This document shows positions 169-21,214 of a stretch of DNA of 48,567 nucleotides, one piece after another. The position numbers and the translations under genes were made by a program. The stretch is from an uncultured Eubacteriales bacterium (GTDB lineage Bacteria > Bacillota > Clostridia > Christensenellales > Aristaeellaceae). How positions within the stretch are numbered: position 1 is the stretch's first letter; each line of letters opens with the position of its first letter. The notes beneath the pieces were generated by a model. It saw only the letters and a list, made by a program, of their open reading frames with translations. It was not told where the DNA came from and did not search any database. The stretch spans positions 1 through 48,567 of the forward strand of contig CACWZI010000007.1 of the NCBI GenBank assembly GCA_902765305.1, given 5' to 3'.

Positions 169-1011
169 ATGCTGCTTGGAGGAACGGTTGCCGGAAGATG
201 GACGACCCCGGAGGAATGGGAAGCCCTGCTGGTCAAATTCCGCTTCAAGGCGGTGACCGCGCCGTTTGACTGCCGGACGGATAAGCGCGAGATCAGCGCC
301 TACCGGCGTATCTGCGAAAAGCATGGCGTGGTCATCGCGGAAATCGGCGTGTGGAAGAACCCGTTCGACCCAAATCCCACCGCCGCCCGCGAGGCGATGG
401 ACTATGCCAAGGGGCAGCTGGCCCTTGCGGACGAAGCGGGCATTCCCTGCTGCGTGAACATCGCCGGCACGGCCAGCGCCGCCGGATGGGACGCGGCGGA
501 CCCCGACAATTACACCGACCAGGCCTACGCCTGGATCGTCAGCAGCATCCGGGAGATCATCGACGCCGTCCGGCCCGCGCGCGCCTTCTACTGCCTGGAG
601 CCCATGCCCTGGATGGTGCCCGACGGTCCCGACGAATACCTTCAGCTGATACGGGATGTGGATCGCGGGCAGTTCGCCGCTCATATGGATTTTGTGAACA
701 TGATCAACAGCCCCCGGCGCTATCTGATGCCGGAGGCCTTCATCGACGAATGTTTCCGCAAGCTGTCGCCCTGGATCAAGAGCACCCACATCAAGGATAC
801 CCGGATGCACCCCACGCGGCTGACCACCCTACTGGAGGAATGCTCGCCCGGCGAGGGGACGCTGGATTTCGGGAAGGTGCTGGGCATCCTGGACCGCTGG
901 CTGCCTGCCGACGCGCCGGTGCTCCTGGAGCATATGACGACCTTTGAGGAATACGCCGCCGCCTACGACCACGTTTCCGCCGCGGCCTGCCGGGCAGGCA
1001 TCGCGATATAG
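169..1011 (+). CDS. Sugar phosphate isomerase/epimerase, xylose isomerase-like TIM barrel
   Basis: The 280-residue product matches the AP endonuclease 2 / xylose isomerase-like TIM-barrel family in length and layout. These cytosolic metal enzymes isomerise or epimerise sugars, inositols or keto-acids. Metal-ligand candidates are Glu in YCLEPMPW, Asp and His in the AHMDFVNM and STHIKD segments, and Glu of LLEHM near the C-terminus. A GTG at 160 is in frame, but the AAAGGGG ribosome site (152-158) lies only one base from it. ATG at 169 is ten bases away and is the better start. The gene stands alone behind its own promoter, so the substrate cannot be read from context. The decayed GH39 xylosidase beyond it would fit plant-sugar use, which is inference only. 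Confidence 0.8.
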   Translation: MLLGGTVAGRWTTPEEWEALLVKFRFKAVTAPFDCRTDKREISAYRRICEKHGVVIAEIGVWKNPFDPNPTAAREAMDYAKGQLALADEAGIPCCVNIAGTASAAGWDAADPDNYTDQAYAWIVSSIREIIDAVRPARAFYCLEPMPWMVPDGPDEYLQLIRDVDRGQFAAHMDFVNMINSPRRYLMPEAFIDECFRKLSPWIKSTHIKDTRMHPTRLTTLLEECSPGEGTLDFGKVLGILDRWLPADAPVLLEHMTTFEEYAAAYDHVSAAACRAGIAI

Positions 1012-8407: not shown

Positions 8408-9082
8408 TCAGAATTCACCTCCACCGGGCATGCCACCATGGCAATACGCATAGTACCAGCATTCGTAGGGGCTGGTGCAGCACTCGCCCGGCTCCACCTG
8501 TACCTCTTCCCGTTCCTTCTGCATGCGGTTCAGATCCCAGATGTTGTCGTTGATCCACTTGTACAGGCCCTTTGCCTCGGTGGTAACATCCACCGGCAGA
8601 AACGGGTTCGCCTCGTCCGGACCGTGCAATACGATGTAAACCCGGCTCACGGGGACACGGCACCGTTTGAGGATGTAATACTGAAACCCCGCATCCTTCA
8701 CAAACTGATCGTGCAGCTCCGACGCGTTCTTGACCTCGTACATATCGTAGACGGGGCCGCGCTTCCTGAGAATGTCCACCGCGCAGTAGTTGTTGTAGTT
8801 GGAAAAAGCGGCCTCGCAGATGACGGGCGTTCCCTTCTCCATATGCTCCGCGGTCCTGGCCAGCATCGCCTTCTTGTCCGGGATGGTGGTGCCGGGCCGG
8901 TAGACGGTCATTTCCTCGTAGGGCCCGAACATGCCCATAGCCCGATCGCCGAAGTCATTTCCCGCGTCCAGACGGGCCTGGATCTCCGGTGGGATGACCT
9001 TCAGCGAGGGCTTATGCTTGTCCAGCCACAGCATTTTGCGGCACTGCATGCCGCGCATGAAATCCGTTTTCGTGATCGCCAT
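8408..9082 (-). CDS. Cas4/RecB-like PD-(D/E)XK nuclease, N-terminal part of a DUF2779-type protein
   Basis: The 224-residue product starts AITKTDFMRGMQCRKMLWLD, the standard opening of DUF2779 and Cas4-like proteins. The nuclease core is visible: Asp in CAVDILRK, then Glu and Lys in MYEVKNAS, then the downstream helix FQYYILK. One N-terminal cysteine (QC) and three near the end (CCTSPYEC...CH) could bind a 4Fe-4S cluster as in Cas4/AddB. The usual DUF2779 protein continues with an RNase H-fold part; here the gene stops after the cysteines. That missing type of sequence occurs separately at 17424-17861. ATG 9082 has AGGGAG upstream. It is the last gene of the minus-strand convoy, 10 bases after the preceding gene. 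Confidence 0.75.
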   Translation of the reverse strand: MAITKTDFMRGMQCRKMLWLDKHKPSLKVIPPEIQARLDAGNDFGDRAMGMFGPYEEMTVYRPGTTIPDKKAMLARTAEHMEKGTPVICEAAFSNYNNYCAVDILRKRGPVYDMYEVKNASELHDQFVKDAGFQYYILKRCRVPVSRVYIVLHGPDEANPFLPVDVTTEAKGLYKWINDNIWDLNRMQKEREEVQVEPGECCTSPYECWYYAYCHGGMPGGGEF

Positions 9083-9092
9083 AGCATTCTCC

Positions 9093-9404
9093 CTAAGGCT
9101 CCAGATAACGGACGGCCTTTCCGGTCGCCGAAGCGTACTCGATCTCCGAGCGGGTGCTGGAGCCGATGTAGCCGTCAACGTTGATGACGAAGATTTCATC
9201 GGCCATGTCGATCTTCCGCTTGTGCATATCATCGAGCATTTCCTTCGTGCCCTCCGTCCAGACCTCGTCATCCCCGGAGTGGCCGAACAGGCCAACGCTG
9301 ATCACGATGTTGCCCTCCAACGTCAGGCGCTTCTGTGCTTCCATAAAAGCATCCTTGAAGCGTGTGCTGCCGCAGAGGGTGATGACCTTATACTTTCCGA
9401 CCAT
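9093..9404 (-). CDS. Nucleoside deoxyribosyltransferase-like / DUF4406-type protein
   Basis: The 103-residue product begins KYKVITLCGSTRFKDAFMEA and ends VDGYIGSSTRSEIEYASATG KAV. The opening glycine-serine loop and the closing GSSTRxEIEYA segment are typical of small Rossmann-like proteins related to nucleoside 2-deoxyribosyltransferases and DUF4406, which bind or cleave nucleosides or nucleotides. It appears full length for that group. The start has AGGTGGAAG upstream and overlaps the TAA of the NADAR fragment region by context (TAATATG). Its neighbours handle NAD/ADP-ribose derivatives and DNA, which fits a nucleotide-related role, but the substrate is unknown. Confidence 0.75.
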   Translation of the reverse strand: MVGKYKVITLCGSTRFKDAFMEAQKRLTLEGNIVISVGLFGHSGDDEVWTEGTKEMLDDMHKRKIDMADEIFVINVDGYIGSSTRSEIEYASATGKAVRYLEP

Positions 9405-9405
9405 A

Positions 9406-9585
9406 TTAATCTTCCACCTTTCGGAGCATGGAGCGTACCTCCATCAACGCAAAGCCGAGAGTGTTCTGGCCACACCATTCGCTGGCGTCGAATCGCTCGT
9501 CCTCATTGAGCCGTATGCCGCAGGCCCAGATGGTATCGCTGCGCGCACACTCGACGAGCCAGGCATTCTTTCTCTTTGATCTCAT
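9406..9585 (-). pseudogene. C-terminal fragment of a NADAR (YbiA-like) domain protein
   Basis: A 59-residue frame reads NAWLVECARSDTIWACGIRL then SEWCGQNTLGFALMEVRSML. This is the C-terminal end of the NADAR fold (usual pattern: ...D..WG.G...G.N.LG..LM.VR). NADAR proteins are N-glycosidases acting on riboflavin intermediates or on ADP-ribosylated guanine. The conserved N-terminal half is missing and no good ribosome site precedes ATG 9585. It sits between the PLD-helicase stop and the DUF4406-like gene. Confidence 0.65.
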
Positions 9586-9601
9586 TTACCGATTCCATGT
9601 G

Positions 9602-12600
9602 CTATCCCATCACCTGTTGTGTCTTCCTCAGGAACTTCGCCGGGATCTCCTGATGCAGCCGCCACACGATGTTCATGGGCCGGCTGCCGGTATGACTGAC
9701 GTAATCCGCCGTGCCGAGGAAGGTATAGGGCGCGGCGCCGCAGGCGTCGCTCTTGGTCTCCCGGACGAACAGCAGCACATGGCTGCCACGGGCCTTGTGG
9801 TGGATATAGCGCTGGCCGGTGGGCGAATCGGCACTGGTGGTGGACTGGCTCTGCCAGTGGAACAGCCGGGAGTTGATGGAGTAATCGTTGTACATGGTCG
9901 TGGGCGAATACTCCTTGTCCGACTTGTTCAGCGTGATCAGCAGCACATCGGTCTGCTTGTCGGCCAGCCACTTCACGCCCTCGCGCAGCGTCTTAGGCTT
10001 CATGAAATCCAACGCCAGCAACAGCTGGTCACGGGTATAGGAACAGTGCACGTCCAGCGGGCAATCGTAGGGCAGGTCCGCCGGCGCGTCGATAAAGTCG
10101 ATGGTATTCAGCTTGTATTTCAGCAGCTCGATCAGTTCGCCCAGCAGGACCGGGCTGTCCGCCAGCGCATACAGCCTCTCCCATACCTGATCCGCACTGA
10201 AATCCTCAATGACCTCCTGCCACACGGTCACATAGAACATATTGAGCATCCGCTTTTCATTATCCCCCAGGGCGGAGAAATCCACATCGTCCAGCCTCGG
10301 CAGGATGTCCAGCAGGAAGCCGATCCAGCGCCGGGAGTCGATGGCGCACAGCCGGCTGAACGCCTTGATCAGCACGTCCTCCACCGGCTCGGCGAAGTTC
10401 TCCCGCATGCCGGCCTCGGCGCACAGTCGCGCGAAGCTGAACTTGGCGTAGATGGTGCGCGCGTCCATGTGATGATAAGTGAGGAAGTTCTCAAGCGTCA
10501 GAGGCAGGCCGCTGTCCTCCTCGAAAGACGCGATGCGGCTGACCAGCCCGCCCTTAAAGCCGTAGCTCTGTCGGATGTTGGTAAGGATGATCTGCGACGC
10601 CTTCTTCTCCAGCTGGATGTAGCAGCCCTTCGGCACGGACACGAACCCATGGCGCAGCTCCTGCTCCACGCTGTGATTGGTGTTGTCCAGCAGCGCGGCG
10701 AACTTCTCCTCGAAGTTGTACTTGCGGTTGGCCGCGCCGATAAAGTCCAACACGGTCAGGCATTCCTTCCCCTCGGCCAGGCGCAAGCCGCGCCCCAGCT
10801 GCTGAAGGAAGATCGTCAGCGATTCGGTGGGCCGCAGGAACAGCACCGTGTTCACCTCGGGGATGTCCACGCCCTCGTTGTAAATGTCCACCACGAACAG
10901 TACCCGCAGCTCACCCTTGACCAGCTTCTCCTGAGTGGAGGCGCGCACGTCGTCCCGACTGTCGCCGGTCAACGCCAGCGCCGGCACGCCGCAGCGATTG
11001 AAGTAGTCGGCCATGAACCGCGCGTGCTCGATGGACACGCAGAAGCCCAGCGCCCGCACGTCGTTCATGTCGGTCACGTATTTATCCATGCTGCGCAGGA
11101 TGTGGTCGGCGCGCTTCTCTGCCACGCCCTGGCTGAGCGTGTACAGGTTGCTCAGTTCCGCGCGGTCATAGCCGCCCCGCACCCAGCGCAGGTCATTCAG
11201 ATCCACGGTATCCGACACGCCGAAATACTGGAACGGGCACAGCAGTTTGCGGTTGATGGCCTCCGGCAGGCGAATCTCCGCCGCGATGCGTCGGTCGAAA
11301 TACCTGTAGATGTCCTGGCCATCCATGCGCTCCGGGGTGGCGGTCAGGCCCAGCAACACCTTCGGCTGGAAGTACTCCAGCGCCCGGCCATAGCTGTGCG
11401 CCGCCGCATGGTGAGATTCGTCGATGACGATATAGTCGTAATAATCGGCGGGGAGCCGCTGGTTCAGTGCCTGGGAGTTCAGCGTCTGCACCGACACGAA
11501 AAGATGCTCCAGGCTCTCCGGGCGATAGTTGCCCACATAGAGCTCGCCGAAGTTGACGTCCTTCAGCACCCCGGCGAAGGTCGCCTGGCTCTGCTTCAAT
11601 ATCTCCTCCCGGTGGGCGATGAACAGCAGCCGGTTGGCCTTCCCGGGATTCTGTTTGCAGAATCGCCTGTAATCGAAGGCGGCGATCACGGTCTTGCCCG
11701 TGCCGGTGGCGGCAACGATCAGGTTGCGGGTGGAGCCGCGCACCTCGCGCTCGGCCAGCAGCTTGTCCAGGATCTCCTGCTGATAGGGATAGGGCCGGAT
11801 GTCGAACAGGAATTGAGGATGCTCCCTGTCGTAGTGCTCGGCCTTGAGCGCCTCCACCAGCCGAGGCCGCATGTCCGGGCCGTAGAACTCAAATTCGTCC
11901 GAGTGCCAGTAGGTGTCGAAAGTGGCAGCGATCTTGCGGATCGTCGCGGGCAGGTCCTTCGCCGTGACTTTCACGTTCCACTCCAGGCCGCTGGAAATGG
12001 CGGCATTGGACAGGTTTGACGAACCCACATAGGCCGTCGTGAAGCCGGTCTCGCGGTAGAACACATAGGCCTTGGCGTGCAGACGGGTGCGCTTGGTGTC
12101 ATAGCTGACCTTGATGCGGGCGTTCGGCAGCTTGGAAAGCGCCTCCACGGCCTTGACGTCCGTCGCGCCCATGTAGGACGTTGTGATGATGCGCAGCTCC
12201 CCGCTTCGCCGGGCGAAGGCCTCCAGATCCTCGAGGATCAACCGCAGGCCACTCCACTTGATGAAGGACACCAGCATGTCGATGCGGTCGGCGCTGGCGA
12301 TCTCCTTCTTGAGCTCGGAGAACATCTGCGGCTCGTGCACCGCGCCAGTGAACAGGCTGCTCTGGGCAATGGAGGTCTCCGGGCGCACGGCATCGTTCGC
12401 CGAGCTGCCCAGCGCCAGCGCCGGGTCTTGCTCCGCCAGCAGCGCCATCAGCTGCTCCGCCCGGTCGACAATGTCTTGGCCATCCGTCTCCGGCAGCAGT
12501 CCGATCAGCCGGTTCGCCAGCGCCACCTGATCCGCCACTTCACCCCGCCCCTCGGCCATGCCGGACAGCGCCCGCTTCGCCGCCTCCGCGATGTACCGCG

Positions 12601-12724
12601 AAAGCACGTCGGCGACCTCAGCAGGATCGACGGGCGCGACCGATTTGCGCTCAGGGGGAACGGTGTCCAATTCCTGGCGCAGTGCGCGGTTGATCAGTTG
12701 TTCGTAGAGACCGGGGTGGAGCAT
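9602..12724 (-). CDS. PLD-nuclease / SF2 helicase / DUF3427-type protein
   Basis: The 1040-residue product is a three-part DNA-processing enzyme. After a helical N-terminus comes a phospholipase-D-type nuclease motif (RLHAKAYVFYRE ... TAYVGSSNLSNAAI, about residues 210-245). The SF2 helicase core follows: Walker A AATGTGKT (about 340), DESHH, LTATPERMD, and motif VI QQLGRGLRLAEG. The last 350 residues match the DUF3427 region, ending in a domain with SDKEYSPTTMYNDYSINSRL and SHVLLFVRETKSD. ATG 12724 lies 24 bases after the Nmad3 stop; an in-frame codon at 12772 would overlap that gene. The PLD motif is of the single-copy HxK type, so the enzyme would dimerise to cleave. Domain layout is intact with no stops. 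Confidence 0.9.
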   Translation of the reverse strand: MLHPGLYEQLINRALRQELDTVPPERKSVAPVDPAEVADVLSRYIAEAAKRALSGMAEGRGEVADQVALANRLIGLLPETDGQDIVDRAEQLMALLAEQDPALALGSSANDAVRPETSIAQSSLFTGAVHEPQMFSELKKEIASADRIDMLVSFIKWSGLRLILEDLEAFARRSGELRIITTSYMGATDVKAVEALSKLPNARIKVSYDTKRTRLHAKAYVFYRETGFTTAYVGSSNLSNAAISSGLEWNVKVTAKDLPATIRKIAATFDTYWHSDEFEFYGPDMRPRLVEALKAEHYDREHPQFLFDIRPYPYQQEILDKLLAEREVRGSTRNLIVAATGTGKTVIAAFDYRRFCKQNPGKANRLLFIAHREEILKQSQATFAGVLKDVNFGELYVGNYRPESLEHLFVSVQTLNSQALNQRLPADYYDYIVIDESHHAAAHSYGRALEYFQPKVLLGLTATPERMDGQDIYRYFDRRIAAEIRLPEAINRKLLCPFQYFGVSDTVDLNDLRWVRGGYDRAELSNLYTLSQGVAEKRADHILRSMDKYVTDMNDVRALGFCVSIEHARFMADYFNRCGVPALALTGDSRDDVRASTQEKLVKGELRVLFVVDIYNEGVDIPEVNTVLFLRPTESLTIFLQQLGRGLRLAEGKECLTVLDFIGAANRKYNFEEKFAALLDNTNHSVEQELRHGFVSVPKGCYIQLEKKASQIILTNIRQSYGFKGGLVSRIASFEEDSGLPLTLENFLTYHHMDARTIYAKFSFARLCAEAGMRENFAEPVEDVLIKAFSRLCAIDSRRWIGFLLDILPRLDDVDFSALGDNEKRMLNMFYVTVWQEVIEDFSADQVWERLYALADSPVLLGELIELLKYKLNTIDFIDAPADLPYDCPLDVHCSYTRDQLLLALDFMKPKTLREGVKWLADKQTDVLLITLNKSDKEYSPTTMYNDYSINSRLFHWQSQSTTSADSPTGQRYIHHKARGSHVLLFVRETKSDACGAAPYTFLGTADYVSHTGSRPMNIVWRLHQEIPAKFLRKTQQVMG

Positions 12725-12747
12725 GAAATCACCGTTCTTCCTTCGTA

Positions 12748-13554
12748 CTACTGTATAATCTCTTTGACCCAATCCAGCAGACCGTCAGATTCATACACAA
12801 CGAGCTCCTGCCAGATGCCATTGTAGAATAATCCCTTATCTTTTGCACAGTTCTTTCGTTTCCCATAAACATGTTCAGGCATTAAGAACGGCAGTTCATT
12901 CCAAGTGCCTCTGCTCCTGTTTTCCATTGTCAGCACGCGATCCACACGGTAGTCAAGCGTGCCATAGCCTTTGCAGTCCGGCAAAAATGACAGATGCTCT
13001 GTTGGTATGTAGATAACATTTGTACCATTGCAGATGTGGCTGTCTGCTGCATGTGGGTGCCAGGGATACTCTGATATCCTGTCTTTCGCAGTTAGGATCT
13101 CCCCAATCTGCATATAGCCATAGATGACATGCATATCAGAATGGTCAAAGAAGCTGCCTTTGCTCTGTCTGATATAGCGATAGCATCCATTGTACAGTTC
13201 AACCTTCCGAAACCACCCAAAAAACAGAAACAAGTCGCCCAGTTCAACATTTGCATTGGTCAGTACGCCCTGGGCAGAGCCACTCTGCCCGAAGCCCGGC
13301 TTCCAACCCTCGATGCTCTTTGCCCTGCAATCGTCCCGGATATCCGGATCGACATGACAGTATCCAAAGGTCTTCTTCGGCGCAAGCTGCTGGAGTATTC
13401 TTGAATACGGCAATCCATTATAGCAAAGATCGTCATATCTGTCCTTATCAGCCGACGGGATCGGCATGGATAGTAACGTCCCATCCGGCATGATCGGACT
13501 GGGGCAGCCCCCGTTTGATGAGTCAAAGCCCTTCCTTGAGAGAACAACCTTCAT
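12748..13554 (-). CDS. Nmad3-type protein (nucleotide modification associated domain 3)
   Basis: The 268-residue product begins MKVVLSRKGFDSSNGGCPSP then IMPDGTLLSMPIP, a very characteristic opening that I recall as Nmad3, a family predicted from genome context to act with DNA base modification. A possible pocket segment is WHPHAADSHICNGTNVIYIP. No enzymatic mechanism has been established for it as far as I know. The stop is 23 bases before the PLD-helicase start and the start is 29 bases after the SANT gene. Base composition is less G+C-rich than the helicase genes on either side, so it may have joined the block separately. Confidence 0.75.
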   Translation of the reverse strand: MKVVLSRKGFDSSNGGCPSPIMPDGTLLSMPIPSADKDRYDDLCYNGLPYSRILQQLAPKKTFGYCHVDPDIRDDCRAKSIEGWKPGFGQSGSAQGVLTNANVELGDLFLFFGWFRKVELYNGCYRYIRQSKGSFFDHSDMHVIYGYMQIGEILTAKDRISEYPWHPHAADSHICNGTNVIYIPTEHLSFLPDCKGYGTLDYRVDRVLTMENRSRGTWNELPFLMPEHVYGKRKNCAKDKGLFYNGIWQELVVYESDGLLDWVKEIIQ

Positions 13555-13583
13555 CTGGTTCCTCCGATATCAATAGTACAGCA

Positions 13584-14339
13584 TTAAGTATCCTTTTCCC
13601 GATGAGGTAATACGCGAGGCCCGCTTCCTCCAAATCCCATATAAAACAGCCTCGCACGTATGGCCTGTTCCGTTTGTCCATATATGGCCGCTATCTGGGC
13701 AACCGTTTCTCCGTGGAGAAATCGCCTTCTCAAGTCTTCATTATCAAATCTGGAGCTTGAACCAGTCTCTTCCGGATATTTCTCGGCATCCTCGATCAGC
13801 TGCAATCTCTCCAGCCTGTATTTGATGCCTTTTTCTGAACGATGAAAAGCTTTCATCATTTCCTCAATAGACTTCCCATCGTTGAACATTTCCCTTAAAC
13901 GGGCATCCTCCTGGGGCATCCATTGTGTCCCCACACGTTCCAAGCCGGGCTTGATCTGGTTGCCATAGCGGTCTGTTGTGCGCTGCATAAGGCCAAGACA
14001 CATCAACCGATTGTTTATCCCCCTTGGCCGCCTTTGGAGAATTACACACATTCTCTCCACAGGTACCTGGTTTTTGTATAGTTTTCTCAATCCCCGGTCA
14101 TCTTCTTCGGTCCAGGGGCGACCGGCATTGAGTTTCCCGCGCTTTGTATACTGCCCCTGCGATGAACGAACTTGGTTTTTTCCGCCTGCCTCGTTATATA
14201 ACGCCTCAACAGATTTGTATAGAGCCATGATGACATCTGGTTCCGTGTGAACCCCATCCTCTGGCAGGATTTCGCCCGTCACAGGATGAACGCCGTTCAG
14301 CAGCATTTCCAACACTTCAATCGCACGCTCATTGTTCAT
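13584..14339 (-). CDS. DNA-binding protein with three Myb/SANT-like repeats
   Basis: The 251-residue product has three helical repeats with the tryptophan/acidic openings of Myb/SANT or GcrA-like domains: RPWTEEDDRGLRKLYKNQVP with INNRLMCLGL; QWMPQEDARLREMFNDGKSI with IKYRLERLQL; and RFDNEDLRRRFLHGETVAQI with IRARLFYMGF. Each ends in a basic recognition-type helix, so the protein probably binds DNA sequence-specifically. ATG 14339 overlaps the TGA of the nuclease-helicase gene (ATGA), which indicates translational coupling. It could act as the specificity or targeting subunit for the helicases around it; that is inference. Composition is lower in G+C than the helicases. Confidence 0.75.
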   Translation of the reverse strand: MNNERAIEVLEMLLNGVHPVTGEILPEDGVHTEPDVIMALYKSVEALYNEAGGKNQVRSSQGQYTKRGKLNAGRPWTEEDDRGLRKLYKNQVPVERMCVILQRRPRGINNRLMCLGLMQRTTDRYGNQIKPGLERVGTQWMPQEDARLREMFNDGKSIEEMMKAFHRSEKGIKYRLERLQLIEDAEKYPEETGSSSRFDNEDLRRRFLHGETVAQIAAIYGQTEQAIRARLFYMGFGGSGPRVLPHREKDT

Positions 14340-16597
14340 CTGGAGCCCTCCAGCCTTCTGTAATACCCCTCCAGCTTCTCCTCGCAAATCCCCCTGATCT
14401 CCGTCTTTTCCTCTTCTGTCAGCCGCTTCCACACGCTATTGTCCACCTCAACGATGCCGAGGGTCTTGGTATGCCGCATCATCTGCATGTCCTCGAAGCG
14501 CTTGAAGGGATTGGCCAGGATATTCCGCTCGATCTCCTTGTCGGCCACATCCTCGCGGCAATAGAGGCTGTTGGGCTTTTCAACGACCAGGCCCCGGCTG
14601 CGGCGGTCGGCATAGAAGCTGCGAAAGAACTGGACGAGGTCGGTCAGCTTCATCCGGCCCTTCCCGTCCGCGCAGGCCAGCACGGCCAGCATCAGTACGG
14701 GCTTGTAGGAGTAACTCATGTCCATGCGCCGCACCATGTCCATGAACATGGCCTTGCGGTTGGAATCGTCGATCAGCGTCCAGCCATACTTCGCGGCGGC
14801 GGCCTCCAGCGTCTCCTCCTTAAAATACTTGAAGGTCCGGTGCTCGCTCATGGGCACCACCAGGTCCGGCAGGATCATGCCCTCGCGGACGTAGCGCTCG
14901 ACGGTCTCGCTCTGCACGTCCACGCGCCGCACGAACTCCATCTGCGACAGCATTCCGGCGGCCTCCTCCTGCCAGTTGAACAGGTCGACCAGCTCGTAAT
15001 CCGTGGCGTCCACGGGATAATCCACCAGCGCGTCCGGGCGCTCGCCCTTGGCGTACAGATTCTCCTCCGCCGCCTTCTGCGCCATCGGCGCGGCCACCAG
15101 TCCGCCGGCGTGGTAGTCCTTCAGCCGGAACAGCCGGTGCAGCGAATAGGGCATGTTGTACTGGCTGGCGTTGTCCACGAAGTCGAACACCATCAGGCTG
15201 TCCTTGCCGTCGGCCAGGCGCATGCCGCGCCCCAGCTGCTGGGTGTACAGCACCTTCGACATCGTGGGCCGCGCCATGAACAGCACCTCGGTCTCCGGGC
15301 AGTCCCAGCCCTCGTTCAACAGGTCGCAGGCGCACAGCACCAGCAGCTTCTTTTGGGTGAAGCGCTGGGTGGCCTCGTTGCGCTCGGCCAGCTTCATGCT
15401 GCCGGACACCGCCAGCGCCGGCACGCCGCGCTCGTTCAGCAGTGCCGCGATCTGTTCAGCGTGCCTGATGGACGCGCAGAAGATGACCGTCCGCTTGTCG
15501 CGCACAAACTCCAGCCAGGTGTCCACGATCAGCTGGTTGCGCTCCGGCACGAAGATCTTGCTCTCCAGGTCGCGGATGTTGTACTGCACGCTGTTGAAGC
15601 GCACCTTGGTCAGGTCGATATTGGTGTGTATGCGAATGCAGCGCACTGGCACCAGCTCACCGATTTCCACAGCAGTCTGGATGTCCAAGCGGTGCGCTGT
15701 ATTTTTGAATATTTCCAATATATCCTGATCATCGGCGCGCTCCGGCGTGGCGGTCAGGCCCAGGGTAAAGCGCGGCGTGAAGTAAGCAAGCACCTTCTGA
15801 TAGGTCTCGGCGGCGGCGTGATGGGCTTCGTCGATGATGAGATAGTCGAAGGCGTCCGGCAGGAAGCTGTCCAGGTTCAGCGCCACGCTCTGCACGCTGG
15901 CGCAGATCACCTGGGTGTCGGTCTCCTTGTGGTTCTCCACATACAGCCCCAGCGACGCCTCCGGCCAGAGCTCACGGAAGGTGTCGGCGGCCTGGGTGAT
16001 CAGGTCCTTGGTGTGAGCGATGTAAAGCGTCCGCCCGCCCATGCGCTTCGCGTCGCTGACGGCGGTCACGGTCTTGCCAGTGCCAGTGGCATGGTGGATC
16101 AGCGCGATGGTCTCCTTCGCCTCGCGCATCTTCGCCAGCGCGTCCAGCGCTTCCTGTTGATGCTCCTTCAGCTGGAAAGTGCGGCCCCGCTGGGTCGGCA
16201 GGTAGTCCGCGATGGCGCGGAACTGCGGCTGGCTACCCAGAAATATGCGCAGCTCGTCCTTCACGCGCTCCGGCTGCTCATGCATGATCCGCACCGGCCA
16301 GCGGTACACCGCCCAGCCCATGTGGATCATGCTGTTCTGCTTGGTCAGGTCGTCGTAGTGCTTCACCTGTGACACGTGCCCCGGCAGGTGGCTGGCGTCG
16401 TCGTCAATTTCAATGGCCACGCGCCGCCCGCCGTTCTCCAGCAGGAAATCCGCAAACCGGCTGCCCTGATAGATGTCGAAAAAGGGGTACTGCGAATACA
16501 GAAACCCCGTCTTCTCCGCCCCGAAAACGTCCTCGAACAGGGAGATGAACAGGTTTTCGGCGGATGAGCCGGACGCCGCGCGCATTGTGGTAGACAT
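14336..16597 (-). CDS. PD-(D/E)XK nuclease-SF2 helicase fusion
   Basis: The 753-residue product begins with a restriction-endonuclease-like domain: SSAENLFISLFEDVFGAEKT, then SRFADFLLENGGRRVAIEID with the Asp and Glu-x-Asp of a PD-(D/E)XK site. A type III restriction-like SF2 helicase follows: Walker A HATGTGKT (about residue 175), DEAHHAA, LTATPERAD and motif VI TQQLGRGMRLADG. The C-terminal 250 residues are not assignable beyond helical content. ATG 16597 with GAGAGGC upstream is chosen over the in-frame start at 16729, which would overlap the LRR remnant. The stop overlaps the SANT gene start by four bases. The combination suggests ATP-driven DNA translocation coupled to cleavage. Confidence 0.88.
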   Translation of the reverse strand: MSTTMRAASGSSAENLFISLFEDVFGAEKTGFLYSQYPFFDIYQGSRFADFLLENGGRRVAIEIDDDASHLPGHVSQVKHYDDLTKQNSMIHMGWAVYRWPVRIMHEQPERVKDELRIFLGSQPQFRAIADYLPTQRGRTFQLKEHQQEALDALAKMREAKETIALIHHATGTGKTVTAVSDAKRMGGRTLYIAHTKDLITQAADTFRELWPEASLGLYVENHKETDTQVICASVQSVALNLDSFLPDAFDYLIIDEAHHAAAETYQKVLAYFTPRFTLGLTATPERADDQDILEIFKNTAHRLDIQTAVEIGELVPVRCIRIHTNIDLTKVRFNSVQYNIRDLESKIFVPERNQLIVDTWLEFVRDKRTVIFCASIRHAEQIAALLNERGVPALAVSGSMKLAERNEATQRFTQKKLLVLCACDLLNEGWDCPETEVLFMARPTMSKVLYTQQLGRGMRLADGKDSLMVFDFVDNASQYNMPYSLHRLFRLKDYHAGGLVAAPMAQKAAEENLYAKGERPDALVDYPVDATDYELVDLFNWQEEAAGMLSQMEFVRRVDVQSETVERYVREGMILPDLVVPMSEHRTFKYFKEETLEAAAAKYGWTLIDDSNRKAMFMDMVRRMDMSYSYKPVLMLAVLACADGKGRMKLTDLVQFFRSFYADRRSRGLVVEKPNSLYCREDVADKEIERNILANPFKRFEDMQMMRHTKTLGIVEVDNSVWKRLTEEEKTEIRGICEEKLEGYYRRLEGSR

Positions 16598-16608
16598 GGG
16601 AAAGCCTC

Positions 16609-16950
16609 TCAATCGTCGGTAATGACTTCCGTCAGCAGTATACTTATCAGCGAGTCGCAGTTCATGAACGCTTCTTTGCCGATGCTGATGACCGTACTGG
16701 GAATATCGACATGCCTGAGCCGGCTGCACCCGAAGAACGTGCCCGGTTCGATTCGCGTGACTCCTTCCGGGATCGAGATCGACCTGAGCCTGTCACACAG
16801 GAAGAAGGCATACTCACCCAGCTCCCTGAGCCCTCCGGGCAGCTTCGCCGATTCCAACGACTCACAGCCCTCAAAGGCTCGCTCACCGATATGCGTGACG
16901 CCATCCGGGATGGACAGCTCGGTCAGGTTCCTGCAATAGGCCAGCGCTTA
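16609..16950 (-). pseudogene. Leucine-rich repeat (BspA-like, LRR_5) remnant
   Basis: The frame from a TAA at about 16950 to the stop at 16609 is made of LRR_5 units: LTELSIPDGVTHIGERAFEG, LPGGLRELGEYAFF, ISIPEGVTRIEPGTFFG and VDIPSTVISIGKEAFMNC. Such repeats usually belong to large surface or secreted proteins. There is no good start codon, and the frame opens only where the preceding gene ends, so the 5' part has been lost. It is wedged between an unknown gene and the nuclease-helicase. Confidence 0.7.
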
Positions 16951-17396
16951 GGTTTCGATCCGCTGTACGCTGTCGGGATCGTCAATAGCTCAAGCGGCGG
17001 CGCTTCGTAGTCTTCATCCTCCAGGAGCATGCGCTCCCAGCCCCTTTCATCGACAAACGCGAATTTCCCGATGGCTACGTCTCCCCGGGCGGTCGTGTTC
17101 GCGTATTCACAATAGTCCTCCGGATGGTCGGGGCTCCGGAAGCGCATGATGACCGCGCCGCGATTCTTGAGCAGAGCAGCACATTCACGCAAACAATCCT
17201 CCCATCCGCCGGGGTCAGTCGTCGGCCCTGTGCCGGTATCACAGATATACCAGGTCCGGGTCAGGGGCAGGATTGGATGGGGCTCTACGGTCTCCCATAC
17301 GAAAAACGCGTCCGTTTCACGGGAGAGGATCGCTACCGTTTTCTCCATCAATTCCTGGTTGTCCGTGATGATATAGATGTTCGCATTGATCTCCAT
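16923..17396 (-). CDS. Hypothetical 157-residue protein
   Basis: The protein begins EINANIYIITDNQELMEKTV and ends SKPKRWPIAGT. The alternation of short strands and helices suggests a small alpha/beta fold, but I recognise no family. A segment rich in acidic and aromatic residues (ERMLLEDEDYEAPPLELL) lies near the end. ATG 17396 has GGAGGCGG at a good distance. Its C-terminus runs into the break point of the LRR remnant (they overlap by 28 bases in different frames), so the last residues may not be native. It lies 27 bases after the DUF2779-like C-terminal gene. Confidence 0.5.
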   Translation of the reverse strand: MEINANIYIITDNQELMEKTVAILSRETDAFFVWETVEPHPILPLTRTWYICDTGTGPTTDPGGWEDCLRECAALLKNRGAVIMRFRSPDHPEDYCEYANTTARGDVAIGKFAFVDERGWERMLLEDEDYEAPPLELLTIPTAYSGSKPKRWPIAGT

Positions 17397-17423
17397 GTGA
17401 CCGCCTCCAATCCAGCGGGTTGT

Positions 17424-17861
17424 TCAGGAATTGCTGCCAATCGCTTCTGTCAGCCTCTCCCACACCCTGACCATGGCCAGCGTGTCCAGCCCGCAGTATT
17501 TCAGCAGGTTGCTCCTGCACTCTGCTTGTTCTTCCGAAGTCATTTTTTCCATTCGCTCAAACGTTGCGGAAGCCTCCGTACCGTTGTGCACGCCCTCCAG
17601 ATTGTGGTAGTCCAGCTCCGGATCATCCGGGAACAGCGCGGGTAGCACATATTTGATGGAGTAGGAATCCTGCATGGCCCGGCAATAATAGTGCCTCTTC
17701 TGAAACGGCACCATCAGATCCACAATGTGGTCGTAGATGTTCATCAGATGGTCGGCCAGGTCGGGATACAGCTCCGCCAGTCTTCTTATCCGTCCTTTCT
17801 CGAAGGACATGTTGTAGGCCAGCGTGCAGACGTCCTTTAATCGACATCTGATCCTGATCAT
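17424..17861 (-). CDS. C-terminal half of a DUF2779-type protein
   Basis: The 145-residue product contains CTLAYNMSFEKGRIRRLAEL, PFQKRHYYCRAMQDSYSIKY VLPALFP, LDYHNLEGVHNGTEASATF and LLKYCGLDTLAMVRVWERL, the hallmark end of DUF2779 proteins, where it forms an RNase H/DEDD-exonuclease-like domain. The nuclease-like N-terminal half of such a protein is encoded 8.3 kb away at 8408-9082. ATG 17861 has AAAGGA nine bases upstream; a TTG at 17882 overlaps the exonuclease stop. Since the first residues (IRIRCRLKDV) are not family-like, this seems a truncation given a new start rather than a designed single-domain gene. Confidence 0.7.
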   Translation of the reverse strand: MIRIRCRLKDVCTLAYNMSFEKGRIRRLAELYPDLADHLMNIYDHIVDLMVPFQKRHYYCRAMQDSYSIKYVLPALFPDDPELDYHNLEGVHNGTEASATFERMEKMTSEEQAECRSNLLKYCGLDTLAMVRVWERLTEAIGSNS

Positions 17862-17878
17862 TGTACCATTTCCTTTGA

Positions 17879-18409
17879 TCAAACCAGCCTGTACTTCCGG
17901 ATGAACGGCCTCACGTCCGCCCCGGCCTTCAGATACCTCAGCAGTATCTCCGCGCAGGCGCGGCTGTCGCTGTCGGCCTGATGGTGGTCAAGGCAGATGC
18001 CATAGTAATCACACATGGCGTCCAGGCCATGACTCCTCCCCGGCAGGAGGCGCCTCCCCATCTGGACTGTGCACAGATAGGACGCCGTCGACTGCCAGTC
18101 GATCCCATAGGCCTGCAGGCACTTCTTCAGCACGGACATATCGAAGGGCGCGTTATGGGCAACCAGTATGCCGCTGCCCATGATGGGTTCGATTTGATCC
18201 CACAGCTCCGCGAAGGTAGGCGCGTTCGCCACAGCGGCCTCGTCTATCCCGGTCAGCTGTGTATTGAACCAGTCAAAGCCCGTCTCCGGGTTAACCAGGG
18301 AATAGAAGTTGTGAACGATCTCCCCGTCCTCGACCACCGCAATGCCAATCGCGCTGATGCGGTCATTATACCGGTTCGGTGTCTCAACGTCAAACGCTAT
18401 GTAACGCAT
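17879..18409 (-). CDS. DnaQ-like DEDDh 3'-5' exonuclease
   Basis: The 176-residue protein has the complete DEDDh set: Asp and Glu in AFDVETPN, Asp in HNAPFDMSVL, and His-x4-Asp in HHQADSDSRA. The domain resembles the epsilon-type exonuclease of DNA polymerase III/PolC and would remove nucleotides from single-stranded DNA or RNA 3' ends. It stands without a polymerase. The start overlaps the end of the ADP-ribosylglycohydrolase gene by 20 bases, so the two are translationally linked. Length is normal for stand-alone members. Confidence 0.88.
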   Translation of the reverse strand: MRYIAFDVETPNRYNDRISAIGIAVVEDGEIVHNFYSLVNPETGFDWFNTQLTGIDEAAVANAPTFAELWDQIEPIMGSGILVAHNAPFDMSVLKKCLQAYGIDWQSTASYLCTVQMGRRLLPGRSHGLDAMCDYYGICLDHHQADSDSRACAEILLRYLKAGADVRPFIRKYRLV

Positions 18410-19340
18410 GCTCTGTTTCCTCGATCAGTTTCTCGACCCATTCCCTGCGCTGCAATGTCTCGGTCCACGCCTCGGGCATGGCCTGATAATACAAGCCGGC
18501 CAGTCCACCGGCAATGGCCCCCACGGTATCCGTGTCGTCCCCCAGGTTGACCGCTTTCAGCAATGCGTTCTCAAAGCTGTCGGTCGTCGCCAGCGACCAC
18601 ACCGCCGCCTCGAGCGCGTCCACCACGTAGCCGGTGCTGCGGATCGAATCCTCCCCCAGTCCTGCAAAGCGCTCCAAATCCCTCAGCCGGTCATAGTGCG
18701 CCAGCTCTTCACGGTCTGCAAGATGTTCTTCATAGAAGGTAAAGCCATCCTCCAGCCCCTTCTGTAGGTTCTCCAATAACGAACCACCATGGGATACGAT
18801 GGCCGTCGCCATGAAGTGGTACAAGCCACAGGCGATCTTGGCCCTGATGTGCCCGTGGGTGAGTCCGCCAACCCTGTGGATGATATCGACAGCCTCATCA
18901 TCTGGGATATTTTTCTCGATGCAATACAGCACCGCCGGCATAATTCTCATCAGGCTGCCATTGCCATTGTTGTTCTCGGCAGCGCTTCCCGCTTCATGCG
19001 GCTTGTGGTCACGCTTGTATTTCCGAATCGCATTGATCGTGCCCCGCCCGATGTCATAGGCATAGCCATAGGGCGTGAACGCGCCGTCATCCAGCCACTT
19101 CACGAAGTTATCCATGATGTCGGCGCAGTCGATCCCGCCGTTGCGCTTTATGCTCTCCAGCAGCGCAAGGGTCAGGGAGGAATCATCCGTCCAGGAGCCC
19201 GCAGGCAGGTTGAAGGTGCCAAAGCCCCGCATGCCCGTAACGGGATGCCTGGCCACTTCGGCCCGGGATTCAAACTGCACCGGGCATCCGAGGGCGTCGC
19301 CAACCACGACGCCCATGATACCGTTTTTCCAAATGCTCAT
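18390..19340 (-). CDS. ADP-ribosylglycohydrolase family protein
   Basis: The 316-residue product shows all landmarks of the DraG/ARH family: GVVVGDALGCPVQFE at the start, GSWTDDSSLTLAL (acidic metal site), NNNGNGSLMRIMP, and the C-terminal NLGDDTDTVGAIAGGLAG carrying the second metal-binding acidic cluster. Members use two magnesium ions to remove ADP-ribose from arginine or other acceptors, or to hydrolyse related ADP-ribose compounds. ATG 19340 with GAGGTGAAG upstream is preferred over the start at 19478. A macro domain gene lies two genes upstream, so the strand carries two different ADP-ribose-handling activities. Confidence 0.92.
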   Translation of the reverse strand: MSIWKNGIMGVVVGDALGCPVQFESRAEVARHPVTGMRGFGTFNLPAGSWTDDSSLTLALLESIKRNGGIDCADIMDNFVKWLDDGAFTPYGYAYDIGRGTINAIRKYKRDHKPHEAGSAAENNNGNGSLMRIMPAVLYCIEKNIPDDEAVDIIHRVGGLTHGHIRAKIACGLYHFMATAIVSHGGSLLENLQKGLEDGFTFYEEHLADREELAHYDRLRDLERFAGLGEDSIRSTGYVVDALEAAVWSLATTDSFENALLKAVNLGDDTDTVGAIAGGLAGLYYQAMPEAWTETLQRREWVEKLIEETEHALHSV

Positions 19341-19402
19341 TTTCTTCACCTCGCGGAATAGGATACAACAGTCTGCCGCTTTCCGGGTCATATACACAGG
19401 AA

Positions 19403-20044
19403 TCACCTTGACCAGAAATCCGCTTCGATCTCGTCCTTCCAGTCCGCGCCAAGCGGCGCGTTGCAGCGCACCTGGCAAACTGCCTCGCTGACGACCTTGT
19501 AATTCAAGGTCTGGCCCCGGGAATCGCTGTGGAAGTTCACCGCGCGGTCCCGGCCTATGCCAAAGCGGGCGGCGGTCTCCACGGCGTCGATGTTGGCACC
19601 AAGGAAGAGAAACTCCCAGCCGAACTGCTCCTTTTCCTTCCGCACCATGGCCTTCACTTCATCGCTGCTGTAGCGATGGCTGGCGTTTTCCATGCCGTCG
19701 GTCGTGATGACAAAGACAGTGTGCTCCGGACGATCTTCCTCCCGGGCGTATTTGTGGACGTTGGCGATGTGGTGGATCGCGCCGCCGATGGCGTCGATCA
19801 GCGCGGTCCCACCGCCGACAAAGTACTGGCGATCCGTCATCGGCTCGACCTTCCGCACATCCACCCGGTCGTGGATAACCGTGCTGTTGTTGGAGAAAAG
19901 CACCGTGGATACGAGTGCCTCCCCCTCCGCCTGCTTCTGGCGCTCGATCATGCTGTTGAAGCCGCCGATGGTGTCGGCCTCCAGACCAGCCATGGAGCCG
20001 CTCTTGTCGAGAATGAACACCATTTCCGTCAGGTTCTTTTTCAT
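19403..20044 (-). CDS. von Willebrand factor A domain protein
   Basis: The 213-residue protein is essentially one VWA domain with an intact MIDAS metal site: DKSGSM near the start (FILDKSGSMAGLEADTIGGF), Thr in GGGTALIDAIGG, and Asp in ITTDGMENAS. No signal peptide is present, so it acts in the cytosol. Cytosolic VWA proteins usually organise multi-protein assemblies, often with AAA ATPases or TerD-type stress proteins. ATG 20044 has GGAGGGA upstream. It lies 62 bases before the ADP-ribosylglycohydrolase and 78 bases after the macro-domain gene. Confidence 0.88.
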   Translation of the reverse strand: MKKNLTEMVFILDKSGSMAGLEADTIGGFNSMIERQKQAEGEALVSTVLFSNNSTVIHDRVDVRKVEPMTDRQYFVGGGTALIDAIGGAIHHIANVHKYAREEDRPEHTVFVITTDGMENASHRYSSDEVKAMVRKEKEQFGWEFLFLGANIDAVETAARFGIGRDRAVNFHSDSRGQTLNYKVVSEAVCQVRCNAPLGADWKDEIEADFWSR

Positions 20045-20122
20045 GGATAATCCCTCCTGTCTGTTTGTTGGGTCCATTATACAGACAGGCGGGCGAGAAT
20101 AGGTCGCCTGTGAAGCGACCTT

Positions 20123-21166
20123 TTATTTGGTGCAGTTCCCCAGCAGCGGCTGGTCGAAGTCGAACAGGACCTCATTGATCTCATAGATGTTGTATCGTTT
20201 GTTTTTGATAAAATACTCCACAATGATATCGAGCTTGCTGCTGTGGGAAATGGCGAAGCCGGCCTTGCGTAGCAGCGCGGAGGTTTCCTCCAGCGACAGC
20301 TCCAGCGCGATGGCCAAGGCAAAGGCGGTCGGTTTGCTGGGCCTGTACGCCGGATTGGAGCCGATTTTTGAGAACAGCCGCTTGTCGATATTGGCTTTGT
20401 TGTAGCATTGAGCGTCTGTCATGCCCTTTTCATCGATCAGGCGCAGAAGCGCTTCGGAGAAGCCTTCATCGGCTTCTTCGAACACCTTGGACCAGTCGGG
20501 TTTTGGGCTGCCAGTGATAATTGGCGCCTCGGACGGGAATGCCGAACCGAATAAATCCGCCTCATAGCTCTGCGCCGCTGCTTCATCCACCTGCCACAGC
20601 TCGCGCCTGCGTGCTTCTGTATTCCTGTGGTAGTGGCTGGCGGCATAGACGTCGTCGATATATTCCTGAACGTCGCTGAACAGCTTCCGGCTCGTAAGGT
20701 ATTCCGTGCGGCCAAAGACCACCAGGTAGATGAGCATGTCGTTTTCAAAGAGGAATTTTGAACTCACATCCAGCGCAACCGCCATCGCCTCATCCTTCGG
20801 ATACCCAAAGGTGCCTGCGGAGATCAGGGGAAAGGCGACGCTGCGACAATCGTGGGCCTTGGCAAGCGCGAGGCACTTTTGATAGCAGGACGTCAGCAGG
20901 GCCTTCTCTCCCCCCTGCCCGCCGTGCCAGACCGGACCCACCGTGTGAATGACATACCTGGCCGGTAGGTTATATCCTTCTGTGATGATCGCATCACCCG
21001 TTCCACAGCCGCCGATGGCGTGACACGCCTTGGCAAGCTCAGGGCCAGCGGCCTTATGAACGGCAGCATCCAGACCGCCGCCCGGAACCAGGCCGCGGTT
21101 CGTCGGATTGACAATCGCGTCAACCTGCATTTTGGTTATGTCGTTTCTGACGATTTCGAATGGCAT
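20123..21166 (-). CDS. Macro domain protein with a C-terminal HTH-like domain
   Basis: Residues 1 to about 170 are a macro domain: MPFEIVRNDITKMQVDAIVN with PTN, the GGGLDAAVHKAAG loop and the second ligand loop PLISAGTFGYP. It should bind or hydrolyse ADP-ribose derivatives. After a linker, residues from about 240 form a helical domain (EALLRLIDEKGMTDAQCYNK, KRLFSKIGSNPAYRPSKPTA, LSLEETSALLRKAGFAISHS) resembling a lambda-repressor-like HTH found fused to or near macro and TerD-type proteins. This suggests an ADP-ribose-sensing regulator or a targeting module. ATG 21166 with AGAGGT upstream is preferred to 21211. It is first in the minus-strand convoy. Confidence 0.88.
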   Translation of the reverse strand: MPFEIVRNDITKMQVDAIVNPTNRGLVPGGGLDAAVHKAAGPELAKACHAIGGCGTGDAIITEGYNLPARYVIHTVGPVWHGGQGGEKALLTSCYQKCLALAKAHDCRSVAFPLISAGTFGYPKDEAMAVALDVSSKFLFENDMLIYLVVFGRTEYLTSRKLFSDVQEYIDDVYAASHYHRNTEARRRELWQVDEAAAQSYEADLFGSAFPSEAPIITGSPKPDWSKVFEEADEGFSEALLRLIDEKGMTDAQCYNKANIDKRLFSKIGSNPAYRPSKPTAFALAIALELSLEETSALLRKAGFAISHSSKLDIIVEYFIKNKRYNIYEINEVLFDFDQPLLGNCTK

Positions 21167-21214
21167 GGTGGTACCTCTGAATGCACATAAGATTGGTATA
21201 TCATGATACAAATC

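Follow-up and report, generated by a model that had tools for sequence, protein, structure and literature searches.

The window, a stretch of 48,567 nucleotides, corresponds to contig G000:C7, one of 177 in a draft genome of 3.88 Mb. Four adjacent minus-strand genes form a compact block within it (Table 1): in order of reading, a nuclease-helicase (here HEL1), a protein with Myb/SANT-like repeats (SANT), an Nmad3 protein, and a second helicase with a PLD nuclease domain (PLD-helicase). HEL1 and SANT overlap by 4 bases (ATGA); SANT and Nmad3 are separated by 29 bases, and Nmad3 and PLD-helicase by 23, counting from ATG 12724. The listed ORF for PLD-helicase (9602-12772) begins at a TTG, but the ATG is the more likely start, since DNA similarity to relatives begins there. 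A ribosome-binding-like GGAGG precedes both SANT and Nmad3; counts of promoters and terminators in the window were no different from those in shuffled sequence. GC3 is 0.52 and 0.57 for the two middle genes (SANT and Nmad3), vs. 0.88 and 0.87 for the two helicases. An earlier note on this DNA had described such a block: four minus-strand genes that overlap or lie no more than 29 bases apart, ATGA coupling of SANT to the nuclease-helicase, no internal stops, a lower G+C in the two middle genes, two SF2 helicases with differing nucleases (PD-(D/E)XK and PLD), three Myb/SANT-like repeats, and an Nmad3-type protein. Coordinates and composition agree with it, all four genes being open and full length, and so do the domain assignments given below, the HEL1 nuclease being clear only family-wide.

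Table 1. Features of the four-gene block and its upstream edge; positions are those of the window.
Feature	Position	Strand	Product or basis
PLD-helicase: PLD nuclease, SF2 ATPase, DUF3427; predicted SauUSI-type (Type IV)	9602..12724	minus	1040 aa from ATG 12724
Nmad3 protein	12748..13554	minus	268 aa; PF18754
SANT protein: N-terminal "TGE" segment and three Myb/SANT-like HTH repeats	13584..14339	minus	251 aa
SANT repeats	residues about 72-118, 134-180, 196-236		repeat test, model, family alignment, PDB profile matches
HEL1: putative Vsr/MTES_1575-like PD-(D/E)XK nuclease (about 1-120) and SF2 ATPase	14336..16597	minus	753 aa
MazG-like gene leftover: last 11 codons, stop included	16609..16641	minus	sequence comparison with relatives
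Exchange slot: low-GC stretch, content different in each related genome	12725..14340	minus	DNA comparison, GC3

PLD-helicase carries the Pfam domains PLDc_2, ResIII, Helicase_C, and DUF3427, so ordered that the nuclease precedes the ATPase and DUF3427 comes last. The PADLOC category mREase_IV (Type IV methyl-directed enzyme) matches it at E 4e-246 over residues 125-1047, model PDLC03659 being closer than PDLC03658. Its best solved relative is PDB 7clg (“Putative helicase,” 953 residues, E 4e-89), which we take to be SauUSI. The length and domains of 7clg are consistent with SauUSI as it appears in the excerpted text of PMC7913695. An HxK motif and a downstream GSSN, aligned to 7clg, are kept in all 20 PLD-helicase proteins examined, the window's included; the acidic position of the SauUSI HxK(x)4E is a Y in 16 of these (again including the window's), C in two, I in one, and E in one. 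The missing E is tentatively read as branch variation, because the active site holds the H and K (PMC7913695, in excerpt). PLD-helicase thus resembles SauUSI in its domain order with a C-terminal DUF3427/SRA-like part, in its HxK and GSSN motifs, and in being a single gene; it differs in this Y and in about 90 extra residues ahead of the nuclease domain. From excerpts of the published work, the C-terminal SRA fold of SauUSI recognizes modified cytosine, its PLD domains dimerize, and its ATPase drives translocation (PMC7913695, PMC3874153). Judged by sequence, PLD-helicase is a predicted SauUSI-type (Type IV) restriction enzyme, a single-gene kind. It is present in 24 of 200 family genomes (E 1e-100).

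For HEL1, Pfam reports ResIII and Helicase_C; in the window protein alone the nuclease domain falls below the cut-off (MTES_1575, E 0.013). At a threshold of E 0.05, however, MTES_1575 matches all 13 aligned HEL1 proteins (best 1.2e-9) and DUF559 matches 10 of them (best 2.9e-5), and the residues of a D..ExD..H pattern (D50, E63, D65, H70) are invariant in the 13. The N-terminus is therefore classed as a putative Vsr/MTES_1575/DUF559-like nuclease, its signal faint in the window protein and clear across the family. The motor cores of HEL1 and PLD-helicase are 37% identical over 358 columns, and that of HEL1 matches profiles or structures of EcoAI-type HsdR, RadD, and SauUSI. As in Type I HsdR and other nuclease-SF2 fusions, a PD-(D/E)XK nuclease domain is joined to an SF2 motor; unlike HsdR, the nuclease is of the Vsr/MTES_1575 type rather than HSDR_N, the window gene has no adjoining M or S partner, and most relatives have an adjoining MazG-like gene. 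Neither HsdM nor HsdS was found among the ten window genes scanned (8408-20077), while both are found in the corresponding slot of a relative (G108, below). HEL1 is present in 12 of 200 family genomes, and in a wider search (E 1e-150) in 19 of 308. Plasmids gave no match at E 1e-60, and a single-protein scan of viral contigs none that was confirmed; an alignment scan of the viral contigs found two loci, one 53% identical and near recombinase-like genes (by eye), the other 24%. Several HEL1 relatives adjoin genes that by eye have no obvious defense role. In one genome (G167; L053 9295-19462), a MazG-like gene and HEL1 lie directly behind DrmB-, DrmA-, and UvrD-like genes, a DISARM-like arrangement.

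“MazG-like” is our own label for a small gene; Pfam PRA-PH recognizes one of its copies (E 2e-4) but not the G016 copy. The gene lies directly upstream of HEL1, or within about 500 bases, at 13 of 19 loci (20 HEL1 loci were examined, 19 of which have upstream sequence), and is intact in G108 and G016. In the window, the residues before HEL1 (...ILLTEVITDD and a stop) are the ending of the intact gene in G016; they now share the frame of a sequence that by eye looks LRR-like. The window HEL1 has lost its MazG-like gene, save for the last 11 codons.

Three repeats can be aligned within the SANT protein: for pairs 1-2, 1-3, and 2-3, respectively 0, 5, and 1 of 5000 shuffles reach the observed scores. 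Pfam Myb/HTH matches are sub-threshold. The predicted structure, built from three sequences only, has three three-helix units (pLDDT 65, pTM 0.26), fair for the units and not for their arrangement; its upper Foldseek matches mix sigma factors with tandem HTH proteins such as Reb1 and 2lvs, none better than E 0.02. The family profile matches 8vd6 at 1.1e-13 and 2lvs at 6.6e-10. Tandem three-helix repeats are also found in the CRISPR-repeat-binding 2lvs, the CAP repeat of 8vd6, Reb1, and c-Myb; unlike these multi-repeat binders, SANT has an N-terminal TGE segment, and its gene often adjoins a nuclease-motor gene.

SANT-like matches occur in 19 of 200 family genomes (E 0.001): 12 have a stand-alone protein, six have solely a SANT tail on RecQ, and one is of another kind. 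RecQ with a C-terminal SANT repeat is found at seven loci (L017, L018, L019, L020, L022, L023, L028), the seventh genome having a stand-alone SANT gene as well; RecQ identity is Pfam-confirmed for one and was read by eye for the others. In the window's own genome, the RecQ that was detected lacks such a tail. Two of the 12 stand-alone genes are at contig edges, leaving 10 informative. For six of these, the gene immediately ahead encodes a nuclease-helicase: HEL1 in three cases, EcoEI-type HsdR in two (gaps of 14 and 230 bases), and an AddA-like gene (UvrD with PDDEXK_1) in one, at 21 bases. One more is behind a protein without a Pfam match, and three have no recognizable helicase as neighbor. 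A “Big” partner of 1152 aa, considered for SANT in G087, was rejected; it has no Pfam or PADLOC match and by eye is an antisense frame. These positions, together with the RecQ-terminal repeat at seven loci, suggest that SANT is probably a DNA-binding partner of nuclease-motors. An order-wide search (E 1e-15) found SANT in five of 396 genomes, the window included, all of the same family. Plasmids yielded seven partial relatives: six, from Proteobacteria, match the first 116-120 residues, and the seventh is from an archaeon; phages gave no match, and of 53 stretches in viral contigs none was confirmed. No report linking Myb-like or SANT proteins with type I restriction in prokaryotes was found in a literature search.

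Nmad3 is assigned by PF18754 at E 1.8e-52, with 178.9 bits vs. a gathering score of 27. Residues H67, D69, H142, H166, and H168 are invariant in alignments of 9 and 10 rows. The predicted structure (10 sequences; pLDDT 78, pTM 0.84) has as its best PDB match the McrB N-terminal domain, followed by THYN1 and PH1033-type proteins and, lower in the ranking, Lon N-domains, none below E 0.07, in a listing mixed with unrelated folds; BFVD gave no match at E 0.001. According to an excerpt of PMC7641849, restriction makes use of modified-base domains of the PUA-like kind, among them EVE, YTH, and SRA. The predicted fold of Nmad3 weakly resembles such readers, with top PDB matches that are coherent but all at E 0.07 or higher; unlike them, Nmad3 is longer, and the invariant H and D residues could form a metal or catalytic site. 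On this weak resemblance, Nmad3 most likely either reads modified bases or acts on them as an enzyme, the second option staying in play because the five residues never vary. An excerpt of PMC13092281 lists NMAD domains, leaving unstated which Nmad is meant, among defense parts both validated and predicted, and in an excerpt of PMC11846954 mutation of a phage nmad5 lets phages escape Tmn; a literature search on the name Nmad3 returned nothing about Nmad3.

Nmad3 occurs in four of 200 family genomes and five of 388 phylum genomes, the window counted in both. Phages gave no match, and a single-protein scan of viral contigs none that was confirmed; an alignment scan of the viral contigs found 10 loci. 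Its contexts elsewhere include type I genes with GmrSD (G772), HSDR_N/DUF429/WYL-like genes (G816), AAA-WYL-Nmad2 (G161), phage tail genes (G007), and recombinases (G167). A cassette of AAA ATPase, WYL/HTH regulator, in some cases a further gene, Nmad2, and Nmad3 recurs, with one case in the family and another on an IMG/VR contig (L043 4708-10753; L166 3610-8810; L175 2977-4413, where Nmad3 and Nmad2-like genes adjoin), and is a candidate for a separate system. In G772, homologs of the Macro-domain and VWA genes at 19403-21211 of the window adjoin Nmad3 (L140 6815-9412).

The order HEL1, slot, PLD-helicase is common to four genomes: the window's, G108, G121, and G1028, the last from a later search of all 308 family genomes and outside the 200. 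What lies in the slot differs: SANT and Nmad3 in the window; SANT, HsdM, HsdS, and proteins of 195 and 518 aa in G108; SANT and DUF6680, behind a HEL1 remnant, in G121; and a 333-aa Mrr-like nuclease, without SANT, in G1028. A 506-aa protein of the G108 slot (L046 13448-14968) has no Pfam match and, by eye, putative DGQHR-like and TIR/deoxyribosyltransferase-like parts. PLD-helicase, from about ATG to stop, is 91.0% (G108), 87.8% (G121), and 92.2% (G1028) identical in DNA to the window gene; HEL1 is 91.6% identical in G108 and 92.9% in G1028, and in G121, where a 3′ remnant encodes the C-terminal 131 aa, 82.5%. Within the slot, blastn (E 1e-8) finds nothing in common with the window beyond about the first 80 bases of SANT. 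The similarity of HEL1 stops at its 3′ end, 20-base blocks dropping from 0.95-1.0 to about 0.55 around 14360-14340, with the blastn match to G108 continuing weakly to 14259. Since G108 and G121 have the same SANT gene (81%), it is the window and G1028 alone that depart from these two at the SANT position. Outside the HEL1/PLD-helicase pair, the regions compared among the window, G108, and G121 have no similarity (E 1e-8) except the MazG-like end. GC3 is 0.84-0.88 for the intact bracketing genes, 0.77 for the G121 HEL1 remnant, and 0.30-0.61 for the slot genes measured. The suggestion of the earlier note that the combination may be assembled from parts is thus borne out by sharp DNA boundaries and strong GC3 steps, in a comparison of draft assemblies in which contig joins could mislead.

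Among the 200 family genomes, six have both HEL1 and PLD-helicase, adjacent in three and on different contigs in three. In G016, HEL1 is 97% identical, no SANT is found in the approximately 190 bases left on the contig, and there is no PLD-helicase match. We considered whether the motor pair had been laterally transferred in recent times and make no such claim, because guaA is similarly conserved in G108 (92 and 84%, in two pieces) and G1028 (92%), about as highly as the motor genes; the corresponding values are 86% for guaA vs. 93% for the motor gene in G016, and 80% vs. 88% in G121. Vertical inheritance of the pair with turnover of the slot fits this comparison as well as transfer does. Since the four genomes are related (three of one genus, one of another), the link between HEL1 and PLD-helicase may be a single inherited event.

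The best reading, to which we give a probability of about 0.78, is that the four genes are a mosaic restriction/defense island with an exchange slot between two ATP-driven nucleases. By homology to SauUSI, the DUF3427/SRA-like domain of PLD-helicase would recognize modified cytosine, the SF2 motor would then translocate, and the dimeric PLD nuclease would cut. HEL1 would act as a Vsr/MTES_1575-type nuclease-motor, in the window without its former MazG-like gene. SANT most likely binds DNA and may recruit or position HEL1, and Nmad3 would be slot cargo, perhaps a modified-base reader or an enzyme on such bases. From relative to relative, the slot content is exchanged and both motor genes are retained.

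A narrower reading has HEL1 and SANT as a two-part machine, with SANT its exchangeable DNA-targeting subunit and Nmad3 and PLD-helicase independent neighbors. Within the set, no pairing except HEL1 with SANT finds support other than from position. The 4-base overlap recurs in G108, SANT lies directly behind HEL1 in three genomes, and it is found behind HsdR and the AddA-like gene and, as a repeat, fused to RecQ. The divergence of SANT (36 and 40% protein identity between relatives, vs. 97% for HEL1 between window and G108) would suit an exchangeable subunit. Close HEL1 relatives in G1028 and, over the roughly 190 bases left on its contig, G016 nevertheless have no SANT behind HEL1, three of the 10 informative SANT genes are by no recognizable helicase, and binding between SANT and HEL1 is putative; we put this reading at somewhat short of even odds.

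That SANT does no more than regulate transcription of the island is rather unlikely. Regulators are common among multi-repeat HTH binders, and the plasmid proteins resembling its first 116-120 residues are encoded near toxin-antitoxin-type or replication genes, but the SANT gene lies behind rather than before the motor gene, and its repeat also occurs fused to RecQ. Still more doubtful is a decaying island whose genes are chance neighbors, functionally unlinked and left over from successive insertions and losses: the MazG-like gene is down to 11 codons, a DUF2779 remnant lies close by, and HEL1 in G121 is cut to its end, yet all four window genes are full length and open with their motifs conserved. 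We hold at similarly long odds a more ambitious version of the exchange idea, in which SANT is a new exchangeable DNA-targeting subunit (of HEL1, HsdR, AddA-like, and RecQ-fusion enzymes) and the space between HEL1 and PLD-helicase a dedicated exchange site, swapping targeting protein and cargo together, with Nmad3 one modified-base-reading cargo.

The earlier note had proposed one machine, in which SANT and Nmad3 recognize DNA state and direct the two nuclease-motors; the shared strand, tight spacing, and GGAGG before SANT and Nmad3 are in keeping with this, as are the weak likeness of the Nmad3 fold to modified-base readers and the modification-dependent kind of PLD-helicase, but it is very improbable, the full set being found in one of the 200 family genomes searched per gene, that of the window (Nmad3 in 4, SANT-like in 19, HEL1 in 12, PLD-helicase in 24), and unrelated genes replacing Nmad3 in three relatives. 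The co-occurrence check that it had proposed went against it. HEL1, SANT, and Nmad3 are all missing from the neighborhood of PLD-helicase in each of 17 additional regions (five with <1 kb upstream; four of the 24 genomes, G018, G044, G048, and G189, were left out of this wide-region comparison), and HEL1, SANT, and PLD-helicase are missing around Nmad3 at 19 other loci (seven genomes, two plasmids, and 10 viral contigs), several of which are cut by contig ends; SANT is absent from all 17 additional HEL1 regions, some of them short of downstream sequence. Absences near loci were tested by tblastn and with all ORFs; L174, a partial match, was left out of alignment A5, and L142 out of A3. Comparison with defense-system models agrees with its remark that it knew of no described system with this set: in PADLOC the two motors match models, and SANT and Nmad3 match none at E 0.1. 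A literature search, our sole basis for absence from print, found no such gene set.

With the block read as a mosaic island, the slot offers four naturally occurring cargos set between one pair of enzymes, and bears on what defense islands exchange. One small module would explain the choice of DNA by motors without a recognition subunit, if SANT repeats do serve to target several helicase families that are unrelated. Nmad3 gains a testable guess from its predicted structure, that of a PUA-like reader.

A restriction gene is found at the slot position elsewhere: in G098, the C-terminal part of an HpaII-type endonuclease (L092 9307-9948) is 36 bases before PLD-helicase. A DUF2779 gene split around the block was considered and rejected, as the ORF at 8426-9082 is only 34% identical to the N-terminal part of the intact G074 protein and has its own stop. 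At 17424-17882 the window has a DUF2779 remnant, the C-terminal part only, which over 17442-17837 is 79% identical to the C-terminal part of that G074 protein, itself encoded near a PLD-helicase.
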